Shown here piece after piece: positions 339 to 14,269 of a stretch of DNA of 64,000 bases. Positions within the stretch are counted from its first letter, which is position 1. Every line of letters starts with the position of its first letter. Made by a program: the position numbers and the translations under genes. The stretch comes from Sediminibacterium soli. Its GTDB lineage: Bacteria; Bacteroidota; Bacteroidia; Chitinophagales; Chitinophagaceae. The notes under the pieces were generated by a model. It worked only from the letters and a program-made list of their open reading frames with translations, was not told the DNA's origin and ran no database searches. The stretch is from positions 2,387-66,386 of the forward strand of contig NZ_JAACJR010000005.1 in assembly GCF_009939225.1 (NCBI RefSeq), in the 5' to 3' direction.

Positions 339-403
339 TGACCGATATCAGCATCGCTTCTGATGCCTGTCACGAGCGCAAACAGGCACCTGCGGTAAGT
401 TTG
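339..403 (+). promoter_or_regulatory. FNR/CRP-type twin-operator promoter A
   Basis: Two TGA-N6-TCA palindromes lie at 339-350 (TGACCGATATCA) and 361-372 (TGATGCCTGTCA), with centres 22 bp apart. TAAGTTTG at 396-403 matches the Bacteroidota TAnnTTTG -7 box. Its final G is 36.5 bp from the proximal operator centre. A start about 5 nt later (near 408) would place the operators at -63.5 and -41.5, the class II activator position. The same geometry recurs at 2269-2333, 5727-5791, 8634-8698 and, inverted, 5637-5701. It should drive the three-gene operon beginning at 462. Confidence 0.8.
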
Positions 404-461
404 TGTTCATTCCTGCACAGCCGCGGGAATCCGTAAAACACACGTATTTTTGCAACCGCTT

Positions 462-848
462 ATGAACTGGAAACTCCCCGTTACGCTGTTACTGCTTGTG
501 GCGCTTGCCTGGCAGTCGCTGAACAAATCGGTGATCGTGGGAGAATACTATGCTTCGGTCTTTGAAAAAAACTGCGAAAACAAAAGCAAACCCCTGCTCA
601 AATGCCATGGACGCTGCCAGATGATGAAGCGGCTGCAGGCCGCAGAAAAAAAAGAACAGCAGGCACCCTCTTTCAGCCGCTTCGACCAGGTTCTTTCTTC
701 CAGGTCCTATTTTGCTTCTGTCAACCCGCTAAGCCTGATCAAACCAGTGCATATTGCCGGTTATATCAACACCAGTACCCGCGGTTTTGCGCGCGATTTT
801 TTCCATCCGCCCGGCCCGGGCATCTCACCGCGCCATTCATTGATATAA
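462..848 (+). CDS. Small exported cysteine-rich protein, function unknown
   Basis: The 128-residue product starts with a hydrophobic stretch (residues 5-20) that could be a signal anchor or uncleaved signal peptide. A compact cysteine cluster follows (C38, C48, C52, the last two spaced C-H-G-R-C), then a Lys/Glu-rich segment and a C-terminal FFHPPGPG motif. I recall similar small C-x(3)-C proteins near copper-related TonB receptors in Bacteroidota, so a metal role is possible but unproven. An in-frame TTG at 450 is an alternative start; ATG at 462 puts the hydrophobic segment at the N-terminus. It is first in an operon with the genes at 866 and 1772, under promoter A. Confidence 0.7.
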   Translation: MNWKLPVTLLLLVALAWQSLNKSVIVGEYYASVFEKNCENKSKPLLKCHGRCQMMKRLQAAEKKEQQAPSFSRFDQVLSSRSYFASVNPLSLIKPVHIAGYINTSTRGFARDFFHPPGPGISPRHSLI

Positions 849-865
849 CCCTGTAAAACCAATTT

Positions 866-1762
866 ATGAAAATGCTTATCCGCACTGCGCTTTGCGCTGT
901 TGCAGGGATATGTATGTCGATAAACGCCCGGGCCTGCGATATCTGCGGCTGCGCCATCGGCAACAATAACCCCTACCTTTTTCCCAATGCGTCCCGGCGG
1001 TTCGTTGGTGTTGCCTACTACCACCGGTTCTATCGTCTGCAACCCCCCCACGCTGCCCATGCCAGTATGCGCTCAGAAAACCTGCTGCTGAATGCGCAGG
1101 TTTCGCTCGGCGGCCGGTTCAGGCTGCAGGCCGTTCTGCCCTATATCGTTAACCGCTATACCTCTGACAGCAGGGCCGAAACCAAAAGCGGCCTGGGCGA
1201 TCTCAGCCTGCTGATCGGGTATAACCTGCTGAACAAAAAAACAGGCGCCACCGGCCATCTGGCAACAATTACCGCCGGTCTGAAACTGAATACGGCCAGT
1301 TCAACACCCGGACTTGTGTCTTCAACCGACGCGCTTGAGCTGCAGACAGGTTCGGGCAGCACCGACTACCTGGTTGCCGGCACCTATCGGCTTACGCAGG
1401 CTAACTGGATACTGTTGCTGCAGGGTAATTACCGTTACAATACCCAGGATAAAAAAAGCGGGCTCCGCTTTGGTGATGCGGCTTCCGCCTCGGTTGCCTT
1501 GTACCGGAAAATTCCGTTTTCGCTGTTTACGCTTATCCCCTATGCAACGGGCAGTACCGAGCGCCGGATGGATGATGCCCGCAACCATGTGCTGACAACC
1601 GGTTCGGGAGGCCATATTTCGCTGGCCGGTGCGGGACTGGATCTGAACACCCGCAGGCTCGCCTTTGGCATCAGCTGCCAGGTGCCTGTATCGCAGTCAC
1701 TGGCCGGCGGTATCATCCGCGAAGCAGCAAGATTTAATGCACATGCTTTTTTCACACTTTAA
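866..1762 (+). CDS. Predicted outer-membrane beta-barrel with N-terminal CxxCxC motif
   Basis: The 298-residue protein has a signal peptide (about residues 1-23, ending ARA). The mature end starts with a CDICGC motif (C24, C27, C29), which looks suited to binding a metal. The rest alternates polar and aromatic residues and ends in FFTL, as expected for an outer-membrane barrel. Related Bacteroidota proteins are usually called hypothetical or transporter. It lies 17 bp after the upstream small protein and 9 bp before the lipoprotein gene, so the three are probably co-transcribed. Barrel topology is inferred from sequence character; substrate is unknown. Confidence 0.7.
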   Translation: MKMLIRTALCAVAGICMSINARACDICGCAIGNNNPYLFPNASRRFVGVAYYHRFYRLQPPHAAHASMRSENLLLNAQVSLGGRFRLQAVLPYIVNRYTSDSRAETKSGLGDLSLLIGYNLLNKKTGATGHLATITAGLKLNTASSTPGLVSSTDALELQTGSGSTDYLVAGTYRLTQANWILLLQGNYRYNTQDKKSGLRFGDAASASVALYRKIPFSLFTLIPYATGSTERRMDDARNHVLTTGSGGHISLAGAGLDLNTRRLAFGISCQVPVSQSLAGGIIREAARFNAHAFFTL

Positions 1763-1771
1763 TCTTACCCA

Positions 1772-2155
1772 ATGAAATTTTTATATGTTATCACAATCAT
1801 GCTGGTTGCCGCATCCTGTGCCAAACACGCGGGCGACCGAATAGAAACAGCCCCCTCTGCCCTGCTCACCATTTCACGGCCAACCGCCGGTCAGCTGCTG
1901 AAGACAGGCGACAGTATACAAATTGTTGCCCTGGCCACCGCTACGGCGGTGATACACGGGTACGAGCTGTACCTTACCAGACAAAACGATACCACCCGTA
2001 TCTGTTCCCTGTCTGTACACGACCACAACGATACCCTGATTATTGACAGGCGTCTGCAGCCGCAGCCCAAAGGCGGATACGAGGCGCATATACTGTTGAA
2101 ACTGGATCACGAAGGCCATACCCTGCACAAACAGGTGCGCTTTGCAACCGAATAA
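1772..2155 (+). CDS. Small lipoprotein, function unknown
   Basis: The 127-residue product has a lipoprotein signal with VAAS-C16, so the mature protein should be lipid-anchored. The remainder looks like one beta-rich, Ig-like domain (alternating hydrophobics, no catalytic motif recognised). It has no cysteines in the mature part except the lipidated one and a single C near the middle. It is the last gene of the operon starting at 462 and is followed by a strong terminator at 2185. I do not recognise a named family. Its placement suggests a periplasmic accessory to the outer-membrane protein at 866. Confidence 0.65.
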   Translation: MKFLYVITIMLVAASCAKHAGDRIETAPSALLTISRPTAGQLLKTGDSIQIVALATATAVIHGYELYLTRQNDTTRICSLSVHDHNDTLIIDRRLQPQPKGGYEAHILLKLDHEGHTLHKQVRFATE

Positions 2156-2184
2156 AGTGCTGTAACAAGCACCGGTTTCATAAC

Positions 2185-2225
2185 GAACGACAATTTCTTT
2201 CACATGGAATTGTCGTTCACTTTTT
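2185..2225 (+). terminator. Rho-independent terminator of the 462-2155 operon
   Basis: A perfect 11-bp stem, GAACGACAATT (2185-2195) with AATTGTCGTTC (2208-2218), encloses a 12-nt loop and is followed by ACTTTTT. It separates the three-gene operon from promoter B. Confidence 0.85.
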
Positions 2226-2268
2226 AGGCAGGCACTTCCCATTCATCACAGGGTTAGCCGGGTAAAAC

Positions 2269-2333
2269 TGACCAGCGTCAGGTTACCGGCTGATGCCCGT
2301 CAGTAAGCGCAGCGGTTGGATTTGATAGGTTTG
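2269..2333 (+). promoter_or_regulatory. FNR/CRP-type twin-operator promoter B
   Basis: TGACCAGCGTCA (2269-2280) and TGATGCCCGTCA (2291-2302) are TGA-N6-TCA palindromes with centres 22 bp apart. TAGGTTTG (2326-2333) is a perfect TAnnTTTG box with its G 36.5 bp from the proximal centre. Predicted transcription start is near 2338, 34 bp before the gene at 2372. Transcription from here would also reach the kinase/regulator pair, making the circuit self-regulating. Confidence 0.82.
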
Positions 2334-2371
2334 TCGGTCAGCTTTTTCTTCCTCCACCTAAATCACCTATC

Positions 2372-2572
2372 ATGAAAACAAACATGGGCGCTATCGACAA
2401 ACTTCTCCGAATACTGGCCGCAACAGTTATCGTGGTGCTGTATTTTGCAGGTGTCCTTAACGGCGCCACGGCCATCGTACTGCTGGCCCTTGCCGGTATT
2501 TTTATCCTTTCATCCTTTACCGGCGTTTGTCCGCTGTATTCCCTTTTCGGCATACACACCAATAAAAAATAA
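2372..2572 (+). CDS. DUF2892 / YgaP-like small membrane protein
   Basis: The 66-residue protein has two hydrophobic helices (about residues 10-30 and 33-50) with a short turn. It opens with an N-terminal MGAIDKLLRI-type motif and ends with a CPLY motif plus a short basic tail. This is the pattern of the DUF2892 inner-membrane domain also found in YgaP. Function is not established; members often sit with rhodanese or redox genes. Promoter B lies directly upstream and the PAS kinase gene starts 82 bp downstream, so it is probably the first gene of the sensor operon. Confidence 0.8.
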   Translation: MKTNMGAIDKLLRILAATVIVVLYFAGVLNGATAIVLLALAGIFILSSFTGVCPLYSLFGIHTNKK

Positions 2573-2654
2573 CCCGACGCACGCTGAAAAGGAACCATTT
2601 TTACCGGTCCATTTTGGATACAGAAGACCTAATTTAGCAGGAAAGAAGATCGGG

Positions 2655-3914
2655 ATGGAGCATATGCAACAGTTTGAAGCGCTATTCGATCACGCAACGA
2701 TTGGCATTGTGCTTTGCAACAAAGATGCCGAGATCATCAATTTCAATGCGCAGGCCGAAGCCCAGTTCGGGTATACAAAAGACGAAGTGCTGGGGAAAAA
2801 AATAGAGGTGCTGCTGCCGGTCAAATACCGGCGGTCGCATGTATCTGACCGCAATCATTTTTATGCGCACCCCGAAAACAAAGTGATGGGGCATGGCCGC
2901 GACCTGCATGGCCAGAAAAAAGACGGCACCGAATTTCCGGTGGAAGTAAGTCTCAGCCATTACCATAACAAAAACGAAGTGTATGTGATCGCTTTCGTGA
3001 TCGATATTACCGTGCGCAAGAACAATGAACTGGTGGTGCTCAAACACCGGGAAGAACTGCAGCAGATCACACGACAGATCACCCAGCTTAACATAGACCT
3101 GGAACAGAAAGTGGAGAACCGCACCAAAATGCTTCGGGAGACCCTGGCCGAGCTGGAAAAATCAAAAAAAGAAGTCACCGATGCCCTTGAAAAAGAAAAG
3201 GAACTGGGCGATCTCAAAACCGGTTTTGTGACCATGGCCAGCCATGAGTTCCGCACGCCGCTGAGCACCATCATGTCTTCGGCATTTCTTCTCTCAAAAT
3301 ACGACAGTGCAGACGATGCACCCAAACGCGAGAAACATATCAACCGCATCAGGGAGGCGGTAAACGATATGAAAAGCATACTGGAAGATTTTCTATCGCT
3401 CGGCAAACTGGAAGAAGGATCCGTAAAACCCAGGATGCAGCTGGTGCCAAACGCCGAATACCTGCTGGAAATGCAGAATGCGGTGGATGCCATGATGCAG
3501 CTCACCAAAAAAGGACAGCGCATCCGCTTCACGCATGATGGCGCTGCAGCGGTCTTTACCGATCTGTCTCTGCTCAAGAACATCATCGTAAATCTCTGCT
3601 CCAATGCCATCAAGTTCTCGCCCGAGGGTACAGTGATACAGCTGCATTCCGCCTGCGACGGGCAGCTGTTTACGCTGAGCGTGAAAGACCAGGGCATCGG
3701 TATTTCGGAAGACGACCAGCAACATCTTTTCGAGCGGTTTTTCCGGGCAAAAAATGCCGCCAATATACAGGGTACGGGACTGGGTCTGCATATCGTGGCC
3801 AAATACCTCGAACTGATGCATGGACAGATCGAACTCAGAAGCGCACTTGACCAGGGAACCGAATTCATCATACAAATACCGCAATCCAACCATGAAAAAG
3901 ATCCTGCTGATTGA
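2655..3914 (+). CDS. PAS sensor histidine kinase, FixL-like
   Basis: The 419-residue cytoplasmic kinase has no membrane segment. Order: PAS domain (1-120), coiled coil (about 125-185), HisKA with H197 in SHEFRTPL, and an HATPase domain with N box (NLCSNAIKF), G1 (DQGIGI), F box (LFERFF) and G2 (GTGLGLH). In the PAS domain, H62 (YRRSH) and R82 (MGHGRD) align by my reading with heme-ligand H200 and O2-contacting R220 of Bradyrhizobium FixL, with the same 20-residue spacing. Position 68 is His where FixL has R206. Many PAS domains share parts of this pattern, so heme binding is inference. ATG 2655 follows a GGAAAGAAG-like site; the frame stays open upstream but runs over the gene at 2372. It overlaps the regulator gene by 23 bp. 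Confidence 0.85.
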   Translation: MEHMQQFEALFDHATIGIVLCNKDAEIINFNAQAEAQFGYTKDEVLGKKIEVLLPVKYRRSHVSDRNHFYAHPENKVMGHGRDLHGQKKDGTEFPVEVSLSHYHNKNEVYVIAFVIDITVRKNNELVVLKHREELQQITRQITQLNIDLEQKVENRTKMLRETLAELEKSKKEVTDALEKEKELGDLKTGFVTMASHEFRTPLSTIMSSAFLLSKYDSADDAPKREKHINRIREAVNDMKSILEDFLSLGKLEEGSVKPRMQLVPNAEYLLEMQNAVDAMMQLTKKGQRIRFTHDGAAAVFTDLSLLKNIIVNLCSNAIKFSPEGTVIQLHSACDGQLFTLSVKDQGIGISEDDQQHLFERFFRAKNAANIQGTGLGLHIVAKYLELMHGQIELRSALDQGTEFIIQIPQSNHEKDPAD

Positions 3915-4941
3915 AGACAACGATGATGTAAGAGAGAACACCGCCGAGATACTCGAACTTTCGAACTACCGGGTGGTAACCGCGCCCAACGGCAAACAGG
4001 GCATTGCACTGGCTTTACAGGAACTGCCCGACCTGATCATCTGCGATATCATGATGCCCGAACTGGATGGCTACGGTGTGTTGCATGCCCTGCACAAACA
4101 CCCGCAAACAGCTGCCATTCCTTTTATTTTCCTCACTGCCAAATCGGAGAAGACCGATTTCAGGAAAGGCATGGGAATGGGGGCGGACGATTATATCACC
4201 AAACCCTTTGATGGCACGGAGCTGCTGAACGCGGTGGAATCGAGGCTGAAAAAAACGGCTGCCATCAAACAACTGTTCAGCCAGGATATAAAAGGCGTAA
4301 CCGAGTTCCTGGACAGCGCACAGCAATCCGGTCACGTGCAACTGACCTCGGAAGAACGTGAAGTGAACAGTTACAAAAAGAAACAGGTGCTGTACACAGA
4401 GGGACAAAGACCCGTGGCCGTTTATTTTGTGGTGAGTGGAAAAGTGCTGGTGCGCAAAAGCAATGAAGACAGCAAGGAATTTGTAACCGATATCTGCATA
4501 CCCGGTGATTTTTTCGGGTTCACGGCCATGCTGGAGGAGATCAACTACCGCGAGGCAGCCGAGTTCCTGGAAGATTCCGAACTGATGATCATCCCCAAAA
4601 AAGATTTCCTGGAACTGATCAACCACGACCAGCAGGTAGCCAAACAGTTTATACGGCTGCTGGCCAAAAATGTGTCTGACAAGGAAGAGCGGCTGGTGAA
4701 CCTTGCGTATAATTCGCTGCGCAAAAAAGTGGCCAACGGTCTGCTGCACCTGGCGGAAAAATTCAGGGAATCAGGGCCTGTCATCGAGATCTCAAGAGAG
4801 CATCTTGCCCATATCGTAGGCTCCGCCACCGAATCGCTGATCCGTACGCTCAGCGATTTCAAAGCCGAAAAAATGATCGATATCAAAGGCAGCCGTATTA
4901 TGATACTGGATGAAAAAAGGCTGGTGAACCTGATCGGATAA
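3892..4941 (+). CDS. Response regulator fused to CRP/FNR-type cNMP-HTH domains
   Basis: The 349-residue protein has a receiver domain (1-120; acidic E8/D9, phosphoacceptor D52, T82, K104), a linker, a cyclic-nucleotide-binding-like beta-barrel (about 155-245), a dimer helix, and a CRP-type helix-turn-helix (about 285-345). The recognition helix has E314 and R318, at the positions of the Glu and Arg that in CRP and FNR read the TGA half-site. That agrees with the TGA-N6-TCA operators at five nearby promoters. There is no FNR-like N-terminal cysteine cluster, so phosphorylation by the upstream kinase is the likely input. The start lies inside the kinase gene, indicating translational coupling. 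It appears to merge the roles of FixJ and FixK. Confidence 0.88.
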   Translation: MKKILLIEDNDDVRENTAEILELSNYRVVTAPNGKQGIALALQELPDLIICDIMMPELDGYGVLHALHKHPQTAAIPFIFLTAKSEKTDFRKGMGMGADDYITKPFDGTELLNAVESRLKKTAAIKQLFSQDIKGVTEFLDSAQQSGHVQLTSEEREVNSYKKKQVLYTEGQRPVAVYFVVSGKVLVRKSNEDSKEFVTDICIPGDFFGFTAMLEEINYREAAEFLEDSELMIIPKKDFLELINHDQQVAKQFIRLLAKNVSDKEERLVNLAYNSLRKKVANGLLHLAEKFRESGPVIEISREHLAHIVGSATESLIRTLSDFKAEKMIDIKGSRIMILDEKRLVNLIG

Positions 4942-4961
4942 AGGATTTGCCGAAGGCCCGG

Positions 4962-5047
4962 CTTATTGAAAGGCTGGCAGGAGGTGCGTAAGCTATGGGT
5001 ATTCACTTAAACTCTTTTACCCTTCCGCCTGTCAACCTTTCAATAAG
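4962..5047. repeat. Imperfect inverted repeat between convergent genes
   Basis: CTTATTGAAAGG (4962-4973) is perfectly complementary to CCTTTCAATAAG (5036-5047). A second, imperfect match (GGCAGGAGG against CCGCCTG) extends the stem inward. The loop is long and there is no adjacent T-run, so it is not a standard terminator, though it sits between two converging genes. It could be a small palindromic repeat or an atypical bidirectional terminator. Confidence 0.6.
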
Positions 5048-5058
5048 TCCGCTGCCCG

Positions 5059-5535
5059 TTATACGGCAAAACACGGTGAGTGCATGCTGTTTTCGAAGCG
5101 GCCGGTTTTTTCAGTGACTTTTATACGGAACACGATGCCCGGTATTTCCTCGTTCAGGTTTTCCTGTATAAAAGGCCAGTGCCTGCCAAGATGGGTGGTT
5201 ACACTCGATATCAGCGGCAATGTCCGCGCTACCAGTAATTTCAGCGCCGCTTCCCGCCCGGCTGGTTCGGTCAGTTCTTCGTAGTTACCCCATACGATCA
5301 CACTCTCCCACTCTCCCATGCTGTGCATATGATCTGTCTGGAAACATACCCTGGGATTACGCCGCATGATCTCCGTTTTTTTGCCTTCCGAAGTATGGAA
5401 ATAGAGGTCTTTTCCGTCGTATGCATAACTGATCGGCGATATATAGGGCACATTATTATCGCTGCAGGCGATACGGCCGATAAGCTGCCCGGAGAGCAGT
5501 GATTCTATCTGTTGCGGACCGAGCAAACCTGTCAT
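5059..5535 (-). CDS. Pyridoxamine 5'-phosphate oxidase-like flavin-binding protein
   Basis: The protein (158 residues from ATG 5535) has the pattern of the PNPOx-like split-barrel family: an N-terminal IESLLSGQLIGRIA element, a PYISPISYAYDGKDLYFHT strand pair, and a KTEIMRRNPRVCFQTD segment. Such proteins usually bind FMN or heme; the substrate is unknown. A TTG-initiated extension to 5616 is open, but homology appears to begin near MTGLLGP. A divergent twin-operator promoter (5637-5701) faces this gene, so it probably belongs to the same microaerobic regulon, with an untranslated leader of roughly 100 nt. Confidence 0.8.
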   Translation of the reverse strand: MTGLLGPQQIESLLSGQLIGRIACSDNNVPYISPISYAYDGKDLYFHTSEGKKTEIMRRNPRVCFQTDHMHSMGEWESVIVWGNYEELTEPAGREAALKLLVARTLPLISSVTTHLGRHWPFIQENLNEEIPGIVFRIKVTEKTGRFENSMHSPCFAV

Positions 5536-5636
5536 AACATCTGTTTTAGGTGATTCAAATGGTATTCCCTGCGGGAAGTATTTCTGCCGAAACGGTTTCA
5601 AAATGCTCCCGGCCAAACCCCTCCCGTTCGGCGATA

Positions 5637-5701
5637 CAAACTTCGCAGCAAACCGGCGGCGGATAACTGACGGGGATCAGCCAGGCGCATGAATTCCGTT
5701 A
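5637..5701 (-). promoter_or_regulatory. FNR/CRP-type twin-operator promoter E (divergent)
   Basis: Read on the minus strand, the proximal operator is at 5668-5679 (plus strand TGACGGGGATCA). The distal one, at 5690-5701 (plus strand TGAATTCCGTTA), has one mismatch (TTA for TCA). Centres are 22 bp apart. Minus-strand TTTG at 5640-5637 lies 36.5 bp from the proximal centre, as in the other copies. The TA of the -7 box is absent (GAAGTTTG). Predicted transcription start is near 5632. Confidence 0.6.
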
Positions 5702-5726
5702 GGTATTGCGTTACGGCCGCCGGAAC

Positions 5727-5791
5727 TGATTTGATTCAGGTACAGATATGACCAAGGTCAGCTACTGTTTGTCTGCCATCTGCCAATTTTG
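5727..5791 (+). promoter_or_regulatory. FNR/CRP-type twin-operator promoter C
   Basis: TGATTTGATTCA (5727-5738) and TGACCAAGGTCA (5749-5760) have centres 22 bp apart. TTTG (5788-5791, in CAATTTTG) lies at the same 36.5-bp distance as in the other copies. The proximal operator is a perfect 5-2-5 palindrome. Predicted start is near 5796, 27 bp before the ATG at 5823. This promoter would launch the ccoI operon. Confidence 0.78.
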
Positions 5792-5822
5792 TCTACCCAT
5801 CCATTTTTATAATGCGCACGAT

Positions 5823-6218
5823 ATGACTTTGAAAATAGACCGGAGTACGAAACTGAAGGACCTGCAGGCGGCTTTCACGGATATGTTCCACTACCTGCGG
5901 ATCGAGTTCTTCCGGAAACCGCATAATGCCTACGAGGTCTCGCATAAGAAAGATATGCGCCTGGCCGAAGAAATTGCACTGGGATTCGACAGGCGGCATA
6001 CCGTTGCCGAGATAGCGGTGGAGGGTCACTGGAAAGTGGCGGAACTCGAGGAAATGTTTGCCAGGGAGGCAGGACTGTACGTGCAGGTATTCCGCAAATC
6101 GGGTAATCTATGGATCGAGACATCGCTTACAGACGACTGGACGCTTGAACAGCAGAACCGGGAAGGCGAATCACTGAGCCTGCCGCTTCCGGTTAAACCC
6201 ATCGACACAGACAGATAA
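5823..6218 (+). CDS. Conserved hypothetical protein upstream of ccoI
   Basis: The 131-residue soluble protein has no signal peptide or membrane helix. It has an N-terminal KIDRSTKLKDLQ segment, a central mix of helix and strand (TVAEIAVEG, VAELEEMFARE), and an acidic, Pro-rich C-terminus. I do not recognise a named domain; similar proteins occur in Bacteroidota near respiratory genes. The ATG at 5823 lies 27 nt past the predicted start of promoter C. An upstream in-frame ATG at 5748 would fall inside the operator, so it is unlikely. It ends 9 bp before ccoI, so the two are almost certainly co-transcribed. Confidence 0.65.
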   Translation: MTLKIDRSTKLKDLQAAFTDMFHYLRIEFFRKPHNAYEVSHKKDMRLAEEIALGFDRRHTVAEIAVEGHWKVAELEEMFAREAGLYVQVFRKSGNLWIETSLTDDWTLEQQNREGESLSLPLPVKPIDTDR

Positions 6219-6227
6219 CGAGCCGCC

Positions 6228-8636
6228 ATGAAAGAACCGAAAACACCCGCTGCTGTCTGCTGTTATCACTGTGGGCAGGACTGCGGTGACCATCCCCTGC
6301 ATGTACACGAAAAAGATTTCTGCTGCCAGGGATGCATTGCTGTTTACGAGATACTGAACCAGAGCGGCATGTGCGATTACTATACGTTGACGCACACACC
6401 GGGAACAAGTCAGAAAATAAAAGTGAGACCCGACAAATTCCGTTTTCTCGACGAAGCCGGTATTCACGATTCACTGATCAGCTACTGCGATAATACGCAA
6501 ACGCATATCACCTTTTACCTTCCCCAGATCCATTGCAGCAGCTGTCTGTGGCTGCTGGAAAACCTGCACCGGCTTAACGGGCACATACTGAGCAGCCGGG
6601 TCAATTTCTCGAGAAAAGAAGTGTCGGTGGTGTTCACACACGACCAGGTTTCGCTGCGGGGCGTTGCGGAACTGCTGACCAGTATCGGTTATGAACCCTA
6701 TATCAGCCTGCAGCAACTCTCCAAACGCAAGCGTTTTTTTGACCGGTCCAAGGTTTTCAAGCTGGGTGTGGCGGGGTTTTGTTTTGCCAATATCATGCTG
6801 TTCAGTTTTCCCGAATACCTGGGTATCGATGCCAATGAACAAAACCTGGTGGGTGTTTTCAGGCACCTCAACTTTGCATTGAGCCTGCCGGTACTGCTGT
6901 TCAGCGCCTCTGAATTCTATATCAGCGCCTGGAAAAGCCTGAAACACGGCGTGCTAAATATCGATGCACCGATTGTACTGGCCACGCTGGTTACCGTTGG
7001 CCGGAGTGTTTACGAGATGGCAACAGGCACCGGCGGCGGTTATTTTGATTCGATGACGGGTATTATCTTCTTTATGCTGATAGGCCGTATTCTTCAGCAA
7101 AGAACCTATGAACAGCTGGATTTTGAGCGCGACTATACCTCTTATTTTCCCGTAGCCGTTACACGGATAGCCGATCATACCGAGCAGATCATCACCCTTC
7201 CGGATATACGATTGAACGATACACTGCTGCTGCACAGCCAGGAACTGATACCTGCAGACGGCATCCTTACCAAGGGACGCGCGGTGATCGACTACAGTTT
7301 TGTAACCGGCGAAAGTGTGCCTGTTGTAAAAGAAATGGGCGAGATCGTATATGCAGGCGGCAAACAGCTGGAGGCTAATATCGAACTGCTCGTGATCAAG
7401 GAAGTGAACCAGAGCTATCTTACCCGTTTGTGGAACAACCACCGCTCCGCGGAAAAAAACATGCAGCGGTCTTTCGTGAACCTGCTCAGCCGTTATTTTA
7501 CGCTGATCCTTTTTTTCATAGCCGCCCTGGCGGTAACCTACTGGTCGGTGCATGACGCAGCAAGGATATGGAATGTGCTTACCGCCATCCTGATCGTAGC
7601 CTGCCCCTGCGCGCTGCTGCTCAGCAACACCTTCACCAACGGCAATATTCTGCGCATTCTTGGCAACAACGGTTTTTACCTCAAGAATGCACAGGTTATT
7701 GAAGACATTGCACAGACAGACCATATTGTTTTCGATAAAACGGGAACGCTTACCATCAGCCGCCAGCCCGATATCGAATACGAGGGCAAGCCCCTGATCC
7801 CTTCTGTCAGGTACCGTGTTGCCTCGCTTGCCAGCCAGTCTATTCACCCGGTAAGCCGCTCCATCGCGGCCTGGATCGGCGGTGAAGGCCGTATGGCGGT
7901 GCAGGCATACAAAGAGATCCCCGGCAAAGGCATCGAAGGTTTTGTGGGAAACGATCTTGTCAGTTTAGGCTCCGCCGGCTTTGTGCATGCGGAACCTGTC
8001 AGCGATCCCGCGAAATCCGCTGTCTTTCTCTCTATCGAAGGGCAGTTATGGGGTGTATTCCATCTCAAGAACCGGTACCGCGATCATATACCCGACCTGC
8101 TGCAAACACTGAAAGGAAAATACGGCATCACCATTCTCAGCGGCGATAATGCTGCCGAGCGGCCTTACCTGCAGAAAATGCTCGGCCAGGAAACCGAGAT
8201 GCTGTTTAACCAGGGTCCCGAACAGAAAATGAATTATATCAGGGCCCTGCAGCAGCAAGGCAAAAAAGTGATGATGGTAGGCGACGGATTGAACGATGCG
8301 GGGGCACTGCAGCAGGCCGATGCCGGCATTGCGGTATCTGATAGCCATAATAATTTTACGCCCGCCAGCGACGGTATTATACAGGCCGAGCAGTTGCCGC
8401 TGATGAATCGGTTTATCCGGCTCTGCCATGCCAACCGCAAGGTGGTGCTGATAGCCTTTGTGGTATCGATACTCTACAATATCGTTGGACTGTTCTTTGC
8501 CGTTCAGGGCGCGCTTTCTCCGATGATTGCCGCGATACTGATGCCGGCAAGCAGCCTGAGCATACTGCTGATCAGCTTCGGCACAAGCAACCTGATAGCG
8601 GCAAAATGGAAACTGGTTCGCAACACCAAAAACTGA
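6228..8636 (+). CDS. ccoI: CcoI-type copper-translocating P-type ATPase
   Basis: The 802-residue P1B-ATPase is predicted to export copper across the inner membrane for cbb3 oxidase assembly. It has a Cys-rich N-terminus (C11, C12, C15, C19, then CCQGC near 32-36), a heavy-metal-associated domain with C103-x-x-C106, paired membrane helices, the TGES-type actuator motif, C459-P-C461 in the transport helix, the phosphorylation motif DKTGT (D503), and the hinge GDGLND (D686). CPC and the Cys-rich N-terminus are typical of CcoI/FixI. Its stop codon overlaps the distal operator of promoter D, so downstream genes can be transcribed both by read-through and from their own promoter. Confidence 0.95.
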   Translation: MKEPKTPAAVCCYHCGQDCGDHPLHVHEKDFCCQGCIAVYEILNQSGMCDYYTLTHTPGTSQKIKVRPDKFRFLDEAGIHDSLISYCDNTQTHITFYLPQIHCSSCLWLLENLHRLNGHILSSRVNFSRKEVSVVFTHDQVSLRGVAELLTSIGYEPYISLQQLSKRKRFFDRSKVFKLGVAGFCFANIMLFSFPEYLGIDANEQNLVGVFRHLNFALSLPVLLFSASEFYISAWKSLKHGVLNIDAPIVLATLVTVGRSVYEMATGTGGGYFDSMTGIIFFMLIGRILQQRTYEQLDFERDYTSYFPVAVTRIADHTEQIITLPDIRLNDTLLLHSQELIPADGILTKGRAVIDYSFVTGESVPVVKEMGEIVYAGGKQLEANIELLVIKEVNQSYLTRLWNNHRSAEKNMQRSFVNLLSRYFTLILFFIAALAVTYWSVHDAARIWNVLTAILIVACPCALLLSNTFTNGNILRILGNNGFYLKNAQVIEDIAQTDHIVFDKTGTLTISRQPDIEYEGKPLIPSVRYRVASLASQSIHPVSRSIAAWIGGEGRMAVQAYKEIPGKGIEGFVGNDLVSLGSAGFVHAEPVSDPAKSAVFLSIEGQLWGVFHLKNRYRDHIPDLLQTLKGKYGITILSGDNAAERPYLQKMLGQETEMLFNQGPEQKMNYIRALQQQGKKVMMVGDGLNDAGALQQADAGIAVSDSHNNFTPASDGIIQAEQLPLMNRFIRLCHANRKVVLIAFVVSILYNIVGLFFAVQGALSPMIAAILMPASSLSILLISFGTSNLIAAKWKLVRNTKN

Positions 8637-8698
8637 TGACAATCAGTTTTTGGCTTGAGTGCTGTCAGCCCTGCACAGCAGCGGCAAAAATACTTTTG
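8634..8698 (+). promoter_or_regulatory. FNR/CRP-type twin-operator promoter D inside the cco cluster
   Basis: TGATGACAATCA (8634-8645) starts at the ccoI stop codon, and TGAGTGCTGTCA (8656-8667) follows with its centre 22 bp away. TACTTTTG (8691-8698) is a perfect TAnnTTTG box at the invariant 36.5-bp distance. Predicted start is near 8703, 15 bp before ccoS. It gives the structural oxidase genes a separate promoter with the same control as ccoI. Confidence 0.85.
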
Positions 8699-8717: not shown

Positions 8718-8882
8718 ATGAGCGTCATCATAGTTCTCATTTTCGCCAGTCTCAGTATCGCGCTTTTTTTTCTCGGTGCATTTATCTGGAACATACGCAA
8801 AGGCCAGTACGATGACCATACCGGGGCATCGCTGAGGATACTGTTTGACGATAACAAGGAAAACGAGGTTTCCAATCATTGA
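8718..8882 (+). CDS. ccoS: CcoS cbb3 oxidase assembly protein
   Basis: The 54-residue protein has one N-terminal membrane helix (about residues 3-24) followed by WNIRKGQYDD and a short acidic tail with RILFDD, the usual CcoS/FixS pattern. CcoS is needed for cofactor insertion into cbb3 oxidase. ATG 8718 is the first in-frame ATG after promoter D and gives the usual family length. It ends 19 bp before ccoNO. Confidence 0.92.
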   Translation: MSVIIVLIFASLSIALFFLGAFIWNIRKGQYDDHTGASLRILFDDNKENEVSNH

Positions 8883-8901: not shown

Positions 8902-11037
8902 ATGCAACTTGAAAAATTCTATTATGACAACAGGGTAGTTAAGTGGTTTGCCTACGCAACGATCTTCTGGGGTGCCGTTGGCATGCTGGCCGGTTTGCTT
9001 GCCGCGATACAGATCTATCTGCCCGGCGCCAATTTCAACCATCCCGTAACCACGTTCGGCCGTGTAAGACCGGTTCATACCAATGCCGTGGTTTTTGCTT
9101 TTGTGGGCAATGGCATTTTTATGGGCGTGTATTATTCACTGCAGCGTCTCTGTAAAGCAAGGATGTTCAGCAATATGCTGAGCAAACTGCATTTCTGGGG
9201 ATGGCAGACCATTATCGTAGTGGGAGCCATTACCCTGCTTGCCGGTTATACAACGGGTAAGGAATATGCAGAACTGGAATGGCCGGTGGATGTTGCCATC
9301 ACCATCGTGTGGGTATTGTTCGGCATCAATATGTTCGGCACCATACTGAAGCGGCGCGAAAGCCATCTGTATGTAGCCATCTGGTTCTATATCGCCACCT
9401 GGGTTACGGTGGCCATGCTGCATATCGTCAACTCCTTCGAGATACCTGTCAGCTTTATGAAAAGCTACAGCTGGTATGCAGGCGTACAGGATGCATTGGT
9501 GCAATGGTGGTACGGTCACAACGCAGTAGCCTTCTTTCTTACCACACCGTATCTCGGCGTCATGTATTATTTTCTGCCGAAGGCGGCCAACAGACCTGTT
9601 TACAGCTACCGTCTTTCCATCATACACTTCTGGGCGCTGATCTTTATTTATATCTGGGCCGGACCACACCATCTGCTGTATACGGCGCTTCCCGACTGGG
9701 CGCAAAGCCTTGGGGTGGTGTTCAGCGTAATGCTGATTGCACCCAGCTGGGGTGGTATGCTGAATGGTTTGTTCACGTTGCGGGGTGCATGGGACAGGGT
9801 ACGCGAAGATCCTGTGCTGAAATTCATGGTAGTGGCGATCACCGCCTACGGTATGGCCACTTTTGAAGGACCGATGCTGAGCCTGAAAAATGTAAACGCC
9901 ATCTCGCATTTCACAGACTGGACGATCGCACATGTGCATGTGGGCGCCCTGGGCTGGAATGGCTTTATGACATTCGCCGTTCTGTACTGGGTGATCCCGA
10001 AAATATTCAACACCACACTGTATTCCAAGAAACTGGCGGGCACGCATTTCTGGATAGGCACGCTGGGCATTGTATTGTATGCCGTGCCGATGTACTGGGC
10101 AGGTTTCAGCCAGGCCATGATGTGGAAGACCTTTACACCAGATGGCACGTTGAAATTCCAGTTCCTGGAAACCGTTACCCATATCGTACCGCTGTACATT
10201 ACACGCAGTCTCGGTGGCGGACTATACCTGATAGGCGTTTTCCTGATGGTATATAATTTATTCAAAACCGTGAAGAGCGGAAGCCTGGTAGCCAACGAAG
10301 CGGCCGAAGCAGCGCCCTTATCGGCCAAGCCGGAAATACACGGCAAACAATACTGGCACAGGTGGATCGAGAAAAGACCGATGCAGCTGCTGGTGTTCAG
10401 CCTGGTAGCGGTAGCCATCGGCGGTGTACTTGAACTGATCCCCACCTTCCTGATCAAAAGCAATGTGCCCACAATCGCGGCGGTAAAACCCTATACACCG
10501 CTTGAGCTGCAGGGCAGGGATATCTATGTGGCCGAGGGCTGTTATACCTGTCACTCGCAGATGGTGCGTCCTTTCCGCGATGAAGTGGCACGGTATGGTG
10601 AGTACAGCAAGGCGGGCGAGTTCGTTTACGATCACCCCTTCCAGTGGGGCAGTAAACGCACCGGACCCGATCTGGCGCGGATCGGAGGCAAATACCCCGA
10701 TAGCTGGCATTACAACCATATGATGGATCCAAGACTGATGAGCCCCGGTTCGATCATGCCTTCTTACCAGTGGATGCTGGATAAAAAACTGGATACCGGC
10801 AGCACGCCCGCCAAGATAAGGGCCATGCAAACACTGGGCGTTCCCTATCCCGCCGGATATGACCAACGGGCCAATGCAGACCTGATGAAACAGGCAAATG
10901 CGATCAAAGAAAACCTGAAAAAAGACAAGATCAGCACACCGGCCGATGTACAGGTCATTGCACTGATCGCCTACCTGCAGCGGGTGGGCACCGATATCAA
11001 GGCAGATAAAAAAACGACGGCAGACGCAAAACCATAA
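8902..11037 (+). CDS. ccoNO: Fused CcoN-CcoO subunits I/II of cbb3 cytochrome oxidase
   Basis: The 711-residue fusion has a CcoN heme-copper oxidase domain (about 1-470) with many membrane helices. Conserved histidines include RPVHTN (low-spin heme), WYGHN and GPHHLLY (CuB centre) and AHVHVG (heme ligands). After a linker and one anchor helix comes a CcoO domain (about 510-711) with one c-type heme motif, C547-Y-T-C550-H551, and M-containing segments for the axial ligand. It reduces O2 to water at high affinity in the inner membrane. The N-O fusion is common in Bacteroidota. ATG 8902 starts MQLEKFYYD; an upstream open frame overlaps ccoS and is rejected. Confidence 0.96.
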   Translation: MQLEKFYYDNRVVKWFAYATIFWGAVGMLAGLLAAIQIYLPGANFNHPVTTFGRVRPVHTNAVVFAFVGNGIFMGVYYSLQRLCKARMFSNMLSKLHFWGWQTIIVVGAITLLAGYTTGKEYAELEWPVDVAITIVWVLFGINMFGTILKRRESHLYVAIWFYIATWVTVAMLHIVNSFEIPVSFMKSYSWYAGVQDALVQWWYGHNAVAFFLTTPYLGVMYYFLPKAANRPVYSYRLSIIHFWALIFIYIWAGPHHLLYTALPDWAQSLGVVFSVMLIAPSWGGMLNGLFTLRGAWDRVREDPVLKFMVVAITAYGMATFEGPMLSLKNVNAISHFTDWTIAHVHVGALGWNGFMTFAVLYWVIPKIFNTTLYSKKLAGTHFWIGTLGIVLYAVPMYWAGFSQAMMWKTFTPDGTLKFQFLETVTHIVPLYITRSLGGGLYLIGVFLMVYNLFKTVKSGSLVANEAAEAAPLSAKPEIHGKQYWHRWIEKRPMQLLVFSLVAVAIGGVLELIPTFLIKSNVPTIAAVKPYTPLELQGRDIYVAEGCYTCHSQMVRPFRDEVARYGEYSKAGEFVYDHPFQWGSKRTGPDLARIGGKYPDSWHYNHMMDPRLMSPGSIMPSYQWMLDKKLDTGSTPAKIRAMQTLGVPYPAGYDQRANADLMKQANAIKENLKKDKISTPADVQVIALIAYLQRVGTDIKADKKTTADAKP

Positions 11038-11238: not shown

Positions 11239-12420
11239 ATGAAAAGGCGTTTGTCATCCATAATAGAAAGAGCGGTTGCGCTCACCATTTGTTTTCTTGC
11301 GTTGCCTTTTGCACTGCTTGCGGAAGGGCCGCCCAAAAAATCCACACTCGATAATCCGATGGCGGTGGTATTGCTGGTGGTGATCGTTGCATTGCTGATC
11401 GTTATTATACTGATGGCCAATGTGCTTATAGGCACCGCCCAGTTTTATGCCAAACGCGAAAAAGAATCGCGCACCGCCCTGCAGAACATTGCCGGTAAAA
11501 CAACACTGGTCCTTTTGTTTTGCTTAGGCAGTATCGGCAGTTTTGCGCAGGAAGCGGCGGCAGCGGCAACAGCAGCGGCGCCTAAGAGCCGGTCTGTTTC
11601 GGGTCTTTCCGAATCCACTTTCATCATGCTGATGTCGGTCATTTTCCTGGAACTGATCGTGATCCTTGCCATCGGCTTTTTTCTGAAAAGATTGTTGTCC
11701 AGGGAAGCAACGCCCGCAGTCGCCACTGAAGAAGCATTGGTCACCGCAACACCCAAGGAACGCGGTCTGAAAAAATGGTGGGCGAGGGCCAACAGTTTCC
11801 GCTCCATCAAAGAAGAAGCGGAGATCGATCTGGGCCACGATTACGACAGTATCCGCGAGCTCGATAACCGTCTGCCGCCATGGTGGCTGTACGGGTTTTA
11901 CTGCACCATCATTTTTGCTGTTGTGTACCTCTGGCGTTTCGAGATATCGCACAGCGCGCCCTCCAGTTTGCAGGAGTATACTGCATCGGTTGCCCAGGCG
12001 GAGGAAGAGAAAGAAGTTTCTCTTTCAAAAGCCGCCAGCAAAGTGGATGAGAATACAGTGCAGATGCTGGACGCCGCTGCCATTGCTTCGGGAAAAACCA
12101 TTTTTGCCGGCAGCTGCGCACCCTGTCATGGCGCCGATGGCGGCGGTGTGGTGGGCCCCAATCTCACCGATGACTACTGGCTGCACGGAGGATCGTTGAA
12201 AGATGTTTTCAAAACCATCAAATACGGCGTACAGGAAAAAGGCATGAAAGCATGGAAAGACGATTTTTCGCCGGTGCAGATCGCACAGCTGGCAAGCTTT
12301 ATCAAATCCATACATGGCACCAAAGTGGCAACTCCGAAAGAACCACAGGGAGAAATTTTTAAAGAAACCGCAGCGGCGGCAGCTGATTCAACACAGAAAA
12401 GCGGACAGACAAATCACTGA
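11239..12420 (+). CDS. ccoP: CcoP-like cytochrome c subunit III of cbb3 oxidase, mono-heme
   Basis: The 393-residue protein has several hydrophobic N-terminal segments (about 10-28, 41-66, 92-104 and 128-150), then the CcoP N-terminal domain (HDYDSIRELDNRLPPWW, helix near 220-235), then a single cytochrome c domain with C293-A-P-C296-H297. Proteobacterial CcoP normally has two hemes c, so one heme is a clear difference, though frequent in Bacteroidota. An Ala-rich stretch follows a second signal-like segment near residue 105, making the N-terminal 150 residues look like an added module. It should pass electrons to CcoO. The ccoG start lies 1 bp after its stop. Confidence 0.92.
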   Translation: MKRRLSSIIERAVALTICFLALPFALLAEGPPKKSTLDNPMAVVLLVVIVALLIVIILMANVLIGTAQFYAKREKESRTALQNIAGKTTLVLLFCLGSIGSFAQEAAAAATAAAPKSRSVSGLSESTFIMLMSVIFLELIVILAIGFFLKRLLSREATPAVATEEALVTATPKERGLKKWWARANSFRSIKEEAEIDLGHDYDSIRELDNRLPPWWLYGFYCTIIFAVVYLWRFEISHSAPSSLQEYTASVAQAEEEKEVSLSKAASKVDENTVQMLDAAAIASGKTIFAGSCAPCHGADGGGVVGPNLTDDYWLHGGSLKDVFKTIKYGVQEKGMKAWKDDFSPVQIAQLASFIKSIHGTKVATPKEPQGEIFKETAAAAADSTQKSGQTNH

Positions 12421-12421
12421 T

Positions 12422-13819
12422 ATGGCAACGGGAAACCAGTCGAAGGAGAGTTTTCGCGACAGTCTTGCAACACTCGACGAGAGCGGAAAGCGGAAATGGG
12501 TATACGCGGTACAGCCCAAAGGAAAACTGTACCGCATCAGGACCTATGTGAGTTATGCCTACTTTCTGCTGTTTTTCGGGTTGCCCTTTGTTGAAGTGAA
12601 TGGCCGGCCCCTGTTTCTGTTCAACATACCGGAAGCAAAATTTACGCTGTTTGGTAAAGTGTTCTGGCCGCAGGATTTTTTCATTTTCGGGCTGGCGATG
12701 GTCACCTTTATCTTCTTCATCGTATTGTTCACCGCTGCGTTCGGCCGTCTGTTTTGCGGGTGGGTATGCCCGCAGACCATCTTTATGGAGATGCTGTTCC
12801 GGAGAGTTGAATTCCTGGTACTGGGCAGCGCCAACAAACAGAAGATGCTGAAACAGCAGCCATGGACAACCAAGAAAATAGTACTGGTTACCACCAAACA
12901 TGTACTGTTCTTCCTGCTTGCGTTTATCATTGCCAATTTCTTTCTGGCGTATGTCATCGGTATACGCCAGCTCGAAAAGATCATCACGGAACCGCTGAGC
13001 GGGCACCTGATCGGTTTTTCATCCATCATCATCTTCAGTGCCGTATTCTATTCGGTATATGCCTTCTTCCGCGAGCAGGCCTGCACCGTGGCTTGTCCTT
13101 ACGGCAGGCTGCAAAGTGTGCTGCTGGATAAGAACTCGATGGTTGTTGCCTACGACTATACCCGCGGCGAACCCCGCGGTCATTCAAAACAGGCCACCGC
13201 CGGGTTTGGCGACTGCATCGATTGTTTCCAGTGCGTTCGGGTCTGTCCCACCGGTATCGATATCCGTAACGGCGTTCAGATGGAATGCGTAGGCTGTACC
13301 GCCTGTATAGACGCCTGCGACGATGTAATGATCAAGATCAACAAACCCACAAAACTGATCAGGTATGCCTCTGAAAACGGCATTGCCAAAGGAGAAAAAC
13401 TGCATTACACCACGCGGATGAAACTGTACACCGGTCTCTGTGTGCTGATGCTGGGTATATTGTCTGTATTGCTGATGACGCGGAAAGACATCGATGCCAC
13501 CATCATGCGTACCCCCGGTATTCTTTTCCAGGAAAGAGGAACAGACAGTGTATCTAACCTGTATAACATAAAAGTGGTTAACAAAACCGTGAAAGATGTG
13601 CCTTTGTCCATACGGATGGAAAACACAGCTGGCGATGTAAGGATTATTGGCAAAGACTATATACCTGTTGCCAAAGAAGGCCAGGGCAGCGGCACTTTCT
13701 TCGTGGTATTACCAAAAAGCAGCATCAAAACGAGAAAGACGGCGATCGAGCTCGGGCTGTACGACCGCAATAAAAAGATCGCCACCATTAAAACCAATTT
13801 CTTAGGCCCCGTGGGCTGA
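12422..13819 (+). CDS. ccoG: CcoG/RdxA cbb3 oxidase accessory ferredoxin-like protein
   Basis: The 465-residue membrane protein has about five helices, a CGWVCPQT motif near residue 118, and two [4Fe-4S] cluster motifs: C265, C268, C271, C275 and C289, C292, C295, C299. The C-terminal third is a periplasmic Ig-like domain. CcoG (RdxA, FixG) is proposed to reduce copper during CuB assembly. ATG 12422 directly follows the ccoP stop. A longer frame back to 12314 runs inside ccoP and is not used. Confidence 0.93.
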   Translation: MATGNQSKESFRDSLATLDESGKRKWVYAVQPKGKLYRIRTYVSYAYFLLFFGLPFVEVNGRPLFLFNIPEAKFTLFGKVFWPQDFFIFGLAMVTFIFFIVLFTAAFGRLFCGWVCPQTIFMEMLFRRVEFLVLGSANKQKMLKQQPWTTKKIVLVTTKHVLFFLLAFIIANFFLAYVIGIRQLEKIITEPLSGHLIGFSSIIIFSAVFYSVYAFFREQACTVACPYGRLQSVLLDKNSMVVAYDYTRGEPRGHSKQATAGFGDCIDCFQCVRVCPTGIDIRNGVQMECVGCTACIDACDDVMIKINKPTKLIRYASENGIAKGEKLHYTTRMKLYTGLCVLMLGILSVLLMTRKDIDATIMRTPGILFQERGTDSVSNLYNIKVVNKTVKDVPLSIRMENTAGDVRIIGKDYIPVAKEGQGSGTFFVVLPKSSIKTRKTAIELGLYDRNKKIATIKTNFLGPVG

Positions 13820-13837: not shown

Positions 13838-14269
13838 ATGAACTGGGGATACAGACTTACACTTGTGTTTATCGGATTCACCGCCATGATAGGCACGCTG
13901 GTGTACAAGGCAACACATACCAAATACGAACTGGTGAGCAAGGATTATTACTCCGAAGAACTGCGCTACCAGGAGAAGATAGACGGCAGTAACAATGCCA
14001 CGGAAGCAGGCGCACTGTTACTGCAGCAACAGGACAATACCCTGACCGTATCCGTGCCTGAAAACTTACGCGCCACCGCAGACTCTGCCAACGCCTGGTT
14101 TTACTGCAAAACCGATGCATCGAAAGACAAAAAGATAAAACTGGTTTTTGCCGAGGGAAACGCGGTGGTCAATACAAGCGGATTCGCCGCGGATACTTAC
14201 GAACTGCGACTGCAATTTACCATTGGCAGCAAGCCCTACTATTACACCAAATTCCTGACCATTCCCTGA
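13838..14269 (+). CDS. ccoH: FixH/CcoH family protein
   Basis: The 143-residue protein has an N-terminal membrane helix (about residues 5-24) and a periplasmic beta-rich domain. The KDYYSEELRYQEKIDG segment after the helix is characteristic of the FixH family. CcoH is needed for assembly or stability of cbb3 oxidase. It lies 18 bp after ccoG and one base before the TauE-like gene. Confidence 0.9.
   Translation: MNWGYRLTLVFIGFTAMIGTLVYKATHTKYELVSKDYYSEELRYQEKIDGSNNATEAGALLLQQQDNTLTVSVPENLRATADSANAWFYCKTDASKDKKIKLVFAEGNAVVNTSGFAADTYELRLQFTIGSKPYYYTKFLTIP

Follow-up and report, generated by a model that had tools for sequence, protein, structure and literature searches.

The window, by which we mean the whole 64,000-nucleotide stretch of DNA analysed here, carries genes for a cbb3 oxidase and its assembly, a histidine kinase and a fused receiver-CRP protein (REC-CRP), interspersed with five copies of the pattern TGA-N6-TCA, N10, TGA-N6-TCA, N27, TTTG. 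Each copy spans 65 bp and consists of two operators (a twin) followed by a -7 box. The features of the cluster are as follows:

339..403, plus strand: twin promoter A, operators TGACCGATATCA (339-350) and TGATGCCTGTCA (361-372), box TAAGTTTG (396-403), exact match; predicted start 408 (from PMC9723704), predicted to drive ORFs 462-848, 866-1762 and 1772-2155.
462..2155, plus strand: three-gene unit after promoter A, comprising a small protein (462-848), a CDICGC-motif protein (866-1762) and a second small protein (1772-2155); no significant family in a Pfam search of the three.
2269..2333, plus strand: twin promoter B, operators 2269-2280 and 2291-2302, box TAGGTTTG (2326-2333), exact match; predicted start 2338, predicted to drive the YgaP-like gene, the kinase and REC-CRP.
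2372..2572, plus strand: YgaP-like transmembrane protein (Pfam PF11127, E=1.8e-19).
2655..3914, plus strand: histidine kinase, PAS-HisKA-HATPase_c (Pfam), probable heme-PAS sensor.
3892..4941, plus strand: REC-CRP fusion with receiver, cNMP-binding fold and HTH_Crp_2, proposed reader of the twins (Pfam, alignment, co-occurrence).
5059..5616, minus strand: pyridoxamine-5'-phosphate-oxidase-like flavoprotein (Pfam PF12900, E=3.8e-22), putative target of promoter C; one relative also lies behind a twin, in L135.
5637..5701, minus strand: twin promoter C, distal operator TAACGGAATTCA with one mismatch (TAA for TGA at its start), proximal operator TGATCCCCGTCA, box GAAGTTTG; predicted start 5632.
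5727..5791, plus strand: twin promoter D, operators 5727-5738 and 5749-5760, box CAATTTTG, exact match to the pattern; predicted start 5796, predicted to drive ORF 5823-6218 and ccoI.
5823..6218, plus strand: small conserved protein, present in 25 of the 80 neighbourhoods of REC-CRP genes and recurrently preceded by a twin promoter; no match in a Pfam search.
6228..8636, plus strand: CcoI/FixI copper P-type ATPase (Pfam).
8634..8698, plus strand: twin promoter E, operators 8634-8645 and 8656-8667, box TACTTTTG, exact match; predicted start 8703, predicted to drive ccoS, ccoNO, ccoP, ccoG and ccoH-like genes.
8718..8882, plus strand: CcoS/FixS (Pfam PF03597, E=1.4e-17).
8902..11037, plus strand: CcoNO, fused cbb3 oxidase subunits (ORF and motifs, assigned by eye).
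Downstream of CcoNO: CcoP (11239-12420), CcoG-like (12314-13819) and CcoH-like (13838-14269) proteins (ORFs and motifs, assigned by eye).

An earlier note on this DNA had described the five promoters, four exact on the plus strand (from 339, 2269, 5727 and 8634) and one with a single mismatch on the minus strand (5701-5637), and had counted a perfect TAnnTTTG in three of them (A, B and E). This observation is correct and is stronger than was stated there. In the 3.88-Mb genome the four exact matches and the one-mismatch copy all lie within 8.4 kb, no further 65-bp match with up to one mismatch was found in the rest of the whole genome, and the reversed control gave none. The scattered intragenic matches that the note had named as evidence against its idea were thus not seen, the pattern being confined to this cluster. 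When the TTTG was not required, exact operator pairs were again found only in those four places. Allowing two mismatches, the window has eight matches against 0.02 in dinucleotide shuffles, three of the eight being the same near-palindromic pairs read on the opposite strand. The -7 box is imperfect, lacking the TA, at 5727 and at 5701 on the minus strand, and the TGA stop codon of ccoI (8634-8636) doubles as the first half-site of promoter E.

The sigmaA promoter of Bacteroidota is unusual, and a class II CRP/FNR-dependent promoter is one in which the activator site is centred at -41.5 from the start. A mapped Bacteroidota sigmaA box extends from -12 to -5 (PMC9723704), so that a start 5 nt past the G, with operators at -41.5 (proximal) and -63.5 (distal) as the earlier note had proposed, is well founded, the starts themselves being predicted. 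The five sites appear to be activator promoters of class II type with an obligatory second operator.

The kinase gene overlaps the REC-CRP gene at 3892-3914, and the latter sits between twin sites. The best PDB matches of the kinase PAS domain were the heme oxygen sensors FixL (E=1e-17) and DosP. The domain is homologous to that of FixL and has a candidate proximal heme ligand, His62. An alignment of 72 PAS domains has this His in 69, and the kinase is probably a heme-PAS sensor. The column of the FixL distal Arg (R220) holds Arg in 23 of the 72, including the kinase of the window; since most others have Met or Leu, NO, CO or redox state may take the place of O2 as the ligand. As in a two-component system, the HisKA/HATPase_c kinase adjoins a Response_reg domain with a phospho-acceptor Asp and catalytic residues, D9, D52 and K104 being invariant in the REC-CRP alignment. 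Pfam hits to PF00027 (E=1.5e-18) and PF13545 (E=2.1e-13) place the fusion in the CRP/FNR superfamily, and its AF2 model (pLDDT 78.6) has the expected secondary structure. Its output is thus of CRP type and not the LuxR/NarL-type HTH of FixJ. The DNA-contact Glu and Arg of the helix that reads TGA (CRP E181 and R185) show no variation among 18 REC-CRP proteins. All five cAMP-contact positions of CRP (E72, R82, S83, T127, S128) differ according to the alignment, being mostly Y/F, Y, K/R/T, K and E, which disfavours control by cAMP; the N-terminal three-Cys cluster motif of FNR and its C122 are absent from REC-CRP. The earlier note had left the activator unnamed, and the REC-CRP gene lies within the cluster.

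Across 197 genomes of the same family the exact pattern occurred 405 times, in 127 genomes, with no match in the reversed control; the reversed control in a phylum sample likewise gave none. In 1.38 Mb around relatives of REC-CRP, other spacings between operators averaged 0.9 pairs each, whereas a spacing of 22 bp was found in 80 pairs, and TTTG follows 56 of these pairs at a gap of 27. The allowed spacing is 22 bp, rarely 21 or 23, and the distal and proximal operators share one consensus. Flexible helical phasing was rejected, as no peak appeared at 33 or 44 bp. Among proximal operators rightly placed before TAnnTTTG, 33 of 49 had a perfect distal partner (0.2 expected), which together with the fixed spacing bears out the suggestion that the distal operator is nearly obligatory. 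TTTG flanks 9 of 79 twins on both sides, about the expectation for independent sides, so a dedicated bidirectional device is unsupported. Chance or repeat-derived similarity without function has a negligible probability despite the short half-site consensus; no result favoured it, and it is refuted by the whole-genome scan, the empty reversed controls and the 22-bp spacing count, and the letters between the fixed positions vary among copies, so these are not repeats.

The kinase gene is directly upstream of REC-CRP in 70 of 80 loci. Of the 80 named REC-CRP genes, 48 have twins at a distance of up to 10 kb, mostly of up to 1.5 kb, and these twins often begin a few bases past the REC-CRP stop codon. 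They are likewise placed before the kinase/REC-CRP operons of relatives, and promoter B probably serves autoregulation of that operon. The genes preceded by twins in relatives (n=68) included CcoN (10), PAS kinase (9), FixO (8), Usp (8), CcoI-type ATPase (5) and ScdA_N (4), and relatives of ccoNO occur in 25 of the 80 REC-CRP loci. Elsewhere the twins would thus serve the cbb3 oxidase together with its assembly ATPase, the operon of the kinase and regulator, stress proteins and Fe-S repair, and the microaerobic gene set foreseen by the earlier note is recovered across genomes.

Twins and REC-CRP tend to occur together within the family (odds ratio 9.8, p=2e-11, kinship ignored) and in other families of the same class, where twins were found in 28 of 48 genomes with REC-CRP versus 2 of 42 without (p=2.5e-8, kinship again ignored). 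Within the family, 29 of 140 REC-CRP genomes have no exact twin, and 16 genomes that lack REC-CRP nonetheless carry twins, so the operator is not confined to this regulator. The family also has many class II promoters in which the same half-sites form just one operator, so that single sites alone cannot identify the regulator. Nearly all twin-positive genomes without REC-CRP carry a stand-alone FNR-like protein with CxxCx8C and a Cys aligned to FNR C122 (four cysteines), whose recognition helix, GTATES/TxIRxLSxFK, is nearly identical to that of REC-CRP. Among complete genomes, twins were present in 13 of 25 with the FNR-like protein only, which excludes REC-CRP as sole reader everywhere, and in 0 of 22 with neither regulator. 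These genomes would fit a scheme in which a stand-alone FNR-like [4Fe-4S] oxygen sensor reads the twins, with REC-CRP as no more than a further gene of its regulon. We consider this unlikely: of 99 complete genomes with REC-CRP and no FNR-like protein at the threshold used, 78 have twins (mean 2.65 per genome), and in the sole FNR-like homologue in the genome of the window (G000 C11:554881) Tyr replaces the third Cys and Ala the DNA-contact Glu, which disfavours FNR as the reader there.

Both regulators might instead share the twins, for example with one dimer of each at the distal and proximal operators, merging two signals. Complete genomes with both are indeed the richest in twins (21 of 23, mean 3.9), and the near identity of the helices also speaks for such sharing. 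It is nevertheless quite improbable, because most twin-bearing genomes have only one regulator type, the FNR-like partner looks degenerate in the genome of the window, and identical dimers fit better the twins with TTTG on both sides, where each dimer is proximal for one gene. That the distal operator serves a repressor or unrelated factor and not a cooperating activator dimer has a precedent in the tandem anaeroboxes with opposite effects at rhizobial fnrN (PMC7888657), but the common consensus, the single spacing and the location of the distal site upstream of the activating position make it very unlikely.

From these comparisons, the activator of the five promoters is most likely the REC-CRP fusion, paired with the heme-PAS-like kinase. 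The earlier proposal of a single activator shared by all five holds in the comparison across genomes, as does its assignment to the CRP/FNR class II type; FNR itself does not fit, as REC-CRP is without the FNR cysteines. We regard as likely a low-oxygen circuit resembling FixL/FixJ/FixK but contained in two proteins, in which the twins would be read by REC-CRP as adjacent dimers. Low oxygen would lead the kinase to phosphorylate the receiver, so that the CRP-type module would more readily dimerise or become ordered; a pair of dimers would then bind side by side, touching at the fixed distance and possibly cooperating, and the promoter-proximal one would bring RNA polymerase with sigmaA to the TAnnTTTG box. 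In this way the circuit would turn on the cbb3 oxidase, its assembly genes, the flavoprotein and its own kinase-regulator operon.

To our knowledge, low-oxygen control is poorly described in Bacteroidota. Searches of the open-access literature turned up neither an account of the REC-CRP/heme-PAS pair nor one of the 22-bp twin spacing, and the fused regulator beside an oxygen-sensor-like kinase is apparently so far unstudied. On balance we lean towards a broader reading, in which the rigid two-dimer operator, with its fixed distance to the -7 box, would be a standard low-oxygen module across much of Bacteroidota, read interchangeably by Fe-S FNR-like proteins or by receiver-CRP proteins driven by heme-PAS kinases; the sensor would have been swapped and the operator kept, and the FixL-FixJ-FixK relay collapsed into two proteins. 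This gives Bacteroidota a regulator, a sensor, an operator code and a regulon that can be tested and that hold across many genera, and a natural case in which species differ in their sensor but share the operator geometry, making the role of geometry directly addressable.

The closest known systems are the FixL-FixJ-FixK and hFixL-FxkR-FixK cascades of rhizobia (PMC7888657), which share a heme-PAS-like kinase adjoining the regulator, a CRP/FNR-type DNA-binding module and cbb3 oxidase and fixGHIS-type assembly targets. They differ in that here a single protein combines receiver and CRP/FNR module, collapsing the regulator relay, and in the two operators at fixed spacing with a Bacteroidota -7 box in place of a single anaerobox. 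FNR/ANR [4Fe-4S] regulators have in common the TGA-N6-TCA core, the DNA-contact Glu/Arg, the operator position (here a predicted -41.5) and microaerobic targets; REC-CRP, however, has no cluster cysteines, would receive its signal through the receiver domain and has an apparently obligatory operator at -63.5. E. coli CRP at class II and tandem-site (class III) promoters shows the class II position predicted here and two dimers per promoter, whereas REC-CRP is without the cAMP-contact residues and its twins keep one spacing instead of a range of helical phases. HcpR, DNR and NnrR (PMC1274295), the source of the correlation of residue 180/181 with the base applied here, belong to the same CRP/FNR superfamily and share some targets related to NO stress (ScdA-type); their effector domains differ, and the consulted portion of that work contains no fixed twin architecture.

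The earlier note had described five promoters of one architecture, a 65-bp twin made of a distal and a proximal TGA-N6-TCA operator with TTTG at a fixed distance, and all five were found where it had placed them, four exact and one with a single mismatch. The features of this region are:

339-403, plus strand, promoter A, exact
2269-2333, plus strand, promoter B, exact
2655-3914, PAS histidine kinase gene, between promoters B and C
3892-4941, gene for a fusion of a receiver domain with a CRP/FNR module (REC-CRP, hereafter the fusion), overlapping the kinase gene, between promoters B and C
5701 to 5637, minus strand, promoter C, one mismatch
5727-5791, plus strand, promoter D, exact
8634-8698, plus strand, promoter E, exact

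A scan of the whole 3.88-Mb genome allowing at most one mismatch, as the earlier note had proposed, returned nothing further except one pair read in mirror image; the reversed control pattern gave no matches in the same genome. When the promoter box was dropped from the pattern, exact operator pairs were still confined, genome-wide, to the four exact sites. If the TTTG box is matched to the position published for the sigmaA element of Bacteroidota, -12 to -5 (PMC9723704), the predicted operator centres fall at -63.5 and -41.5. The first half-site of promoter E is the TGA stop codon of ccoI (8634-8636), and in many relatives no more than a few tens of bases separate the start of the twin from the stop codon of REC-CRP.

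The exact 65-bp pattern was present in 127 of 197 Chitinophagaceae genomes (405 matches altogether) and, in a phylum sample, in 47 of 392 genomes, nearly all of the same class (Bacteroidia); the reversed control had no matches in either set. In 1.38 Mb of DNA surrounding relatives of the local regulator, 80 pairs of TGA-N6-TCA sites showed the 22-bp spacing against a mean of 0.9 per other spacing, with a few pairs at 21 and 23 bp, no peak at 33 or 44, and 56 cases of a gap of 27 followed by TTTG. Since one distance alone is allowed, the geometry points to two neighbouring dimers that would touch directly rather than bind independently. The upstream operator, which had been proposed as a required part, proved near-obligatory: among 49 proximal operators rightly positioned ahead of TAnnTTTG, 33 had a perfect distal partner (background 0.2) and 40 had one with two mismatches or fewer (background about 2).

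Orthologues of the fusion were identified in 140 of the 197 family genomes, where they co-occurred with twins (odds ratio 9.8, p=2e-11, kinship ignored). In other families of the class, twins were found in 28 of 48 fusion-bearing genomes vs 2 of 42 lacking the fusion, kinship again being ignored. At 48 of 80 loci, twins lay no more than 10 kb from the fusion gene, in most cases no more than 1.5 kb, and the kinase gene was immediately upstream of the fusion gene at 70 of 80 named loci. In a tree, the fusion forms a single clade (support 100/100) that groups with FNR-like proteins, separate from most other CRP homologues (86/97). Its TGA-reading Glu and Arg are kept in 18/18 sequences, and the TGA half-site fits the correlation between residues 180/181 and operator bases published for the CRP/FNR superfamily (PMC1274295). 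An AlphaFold2 model (pLDDT 78.6, pTM 0.50) supports the predicted domain order.

Genomes that have twins but lack the fusion pointed to another putative reader: an FNR-like protein that stands alone, contains CxxCx8C and has a Cys aligning to C122 of E. coli FNR. The two recognition helices are nearly alike (GTATES/TxIRxLSxFK in the FNR-like protein, ATESLIRTLSDFK in the fusion). Among complete genomes, to which this tally was restricted, twins occurred in 21 of 23 with both regulators, 78 of 99 with the fusion only, 13 of 25 with the FNR-like protein only and none of 22 with neither. One genus of the same phylum but outside the class (genomes G458, G491, G563 and G567) carries 4-6 twins per genome and the FNR-like protein without the fusion; the twin geometry may thus predate the fusion or have been transferred. 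In the genome studied here, the only FNR-like homologue has Tyr for the third Cys and Ala for the DNA-contact Glu in the alignment, which leaves the fusion as the best candidate reader of its twins. Single TGAYN4RTCA sites at -41.5 ahead of TAnnTTTG are common in the 197 family genomes (e.g. G103); because they are also found where both regulators are missing, such single-site class II promoters are probably used by other CRP homologues.

None of the CRP cAMP-contact residues or FNR cysteines was found in the 18 aligned fusion sequences, while the Asp and Lys residues of the receiver are retained, from which we infer that the signal should enter by phosphorylation. The best known-structure matches of the kinase PAS domain are FixL (E=1e-17) and DosP. 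At the position of the heme-ligand His of FixL, 69 of 72 aligned sequences have His, while Met or Leu often stands at that of the distal Arg; heme binding is therefore likely and the gas sensed uncertain.

In the window, the twin promoters are predicted to drive the ccoS-NO-P-G-H-like genes, ccoI together with the gene of a small conserved protein, the gene of a PNPOx-like flavoprotein, the YgaP-like/kinase/regulator operon and a three-gene unit with no significant Pfam match. Genes behind twins in relatives (n=68) included CcoN (10), PAS kinase (9), FixO (8), universal stress protein (8), CcoI-type ATPase (5) and ScdA_N (4), and apparent autoregulation of the sensor operon recurs. The small protein at 5823-6218 has no Pfam match; its family, which occurs near REC-CRP at 25 of 80 loci and frequently follows a twin promoter, is a conserved member of the predicted low-oxygen regulon. 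In a same-genus genome without REC-CRP (locus L266:4599-7346), the genes behind a twin encode a short CRP homologue, a protein resembling NnrS and a ScdA-like protein of Fe-S repair, which suggests a link to NO stress. At the window start (1-223, with 2226-2286 of contig C10 just upstream) there are three tandem 71-bp tRNA-like copies, 99% alike. ARAGORN called no tRNA in them, and a partial Rfam tRNA match lies immediately upstream of the window; these repeats beside the cbb3 cluster may represent an array derived from tRNA or a scar left by integration.

Overall, the earlier reading of the twins is supported; the candidate regulator, its probable sensor, the rigid geometry across the family and the putative alternative FNR-like reader are added to it. 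No description of the kinase/fusion pair or the twin geometry was found in the open-access papers searched. The fusion is not a FixJ, as its output domain differs, nor an FNR or a CRP, as it is missing the cysteines of the one and the cAMP site of the other. We propose that it works similarly to the rhizobial FixL-FixJ-FixK and hFixL-FxkR-FixK relays (PMC7888657), with the receiver and the FixK-like module in one protein.
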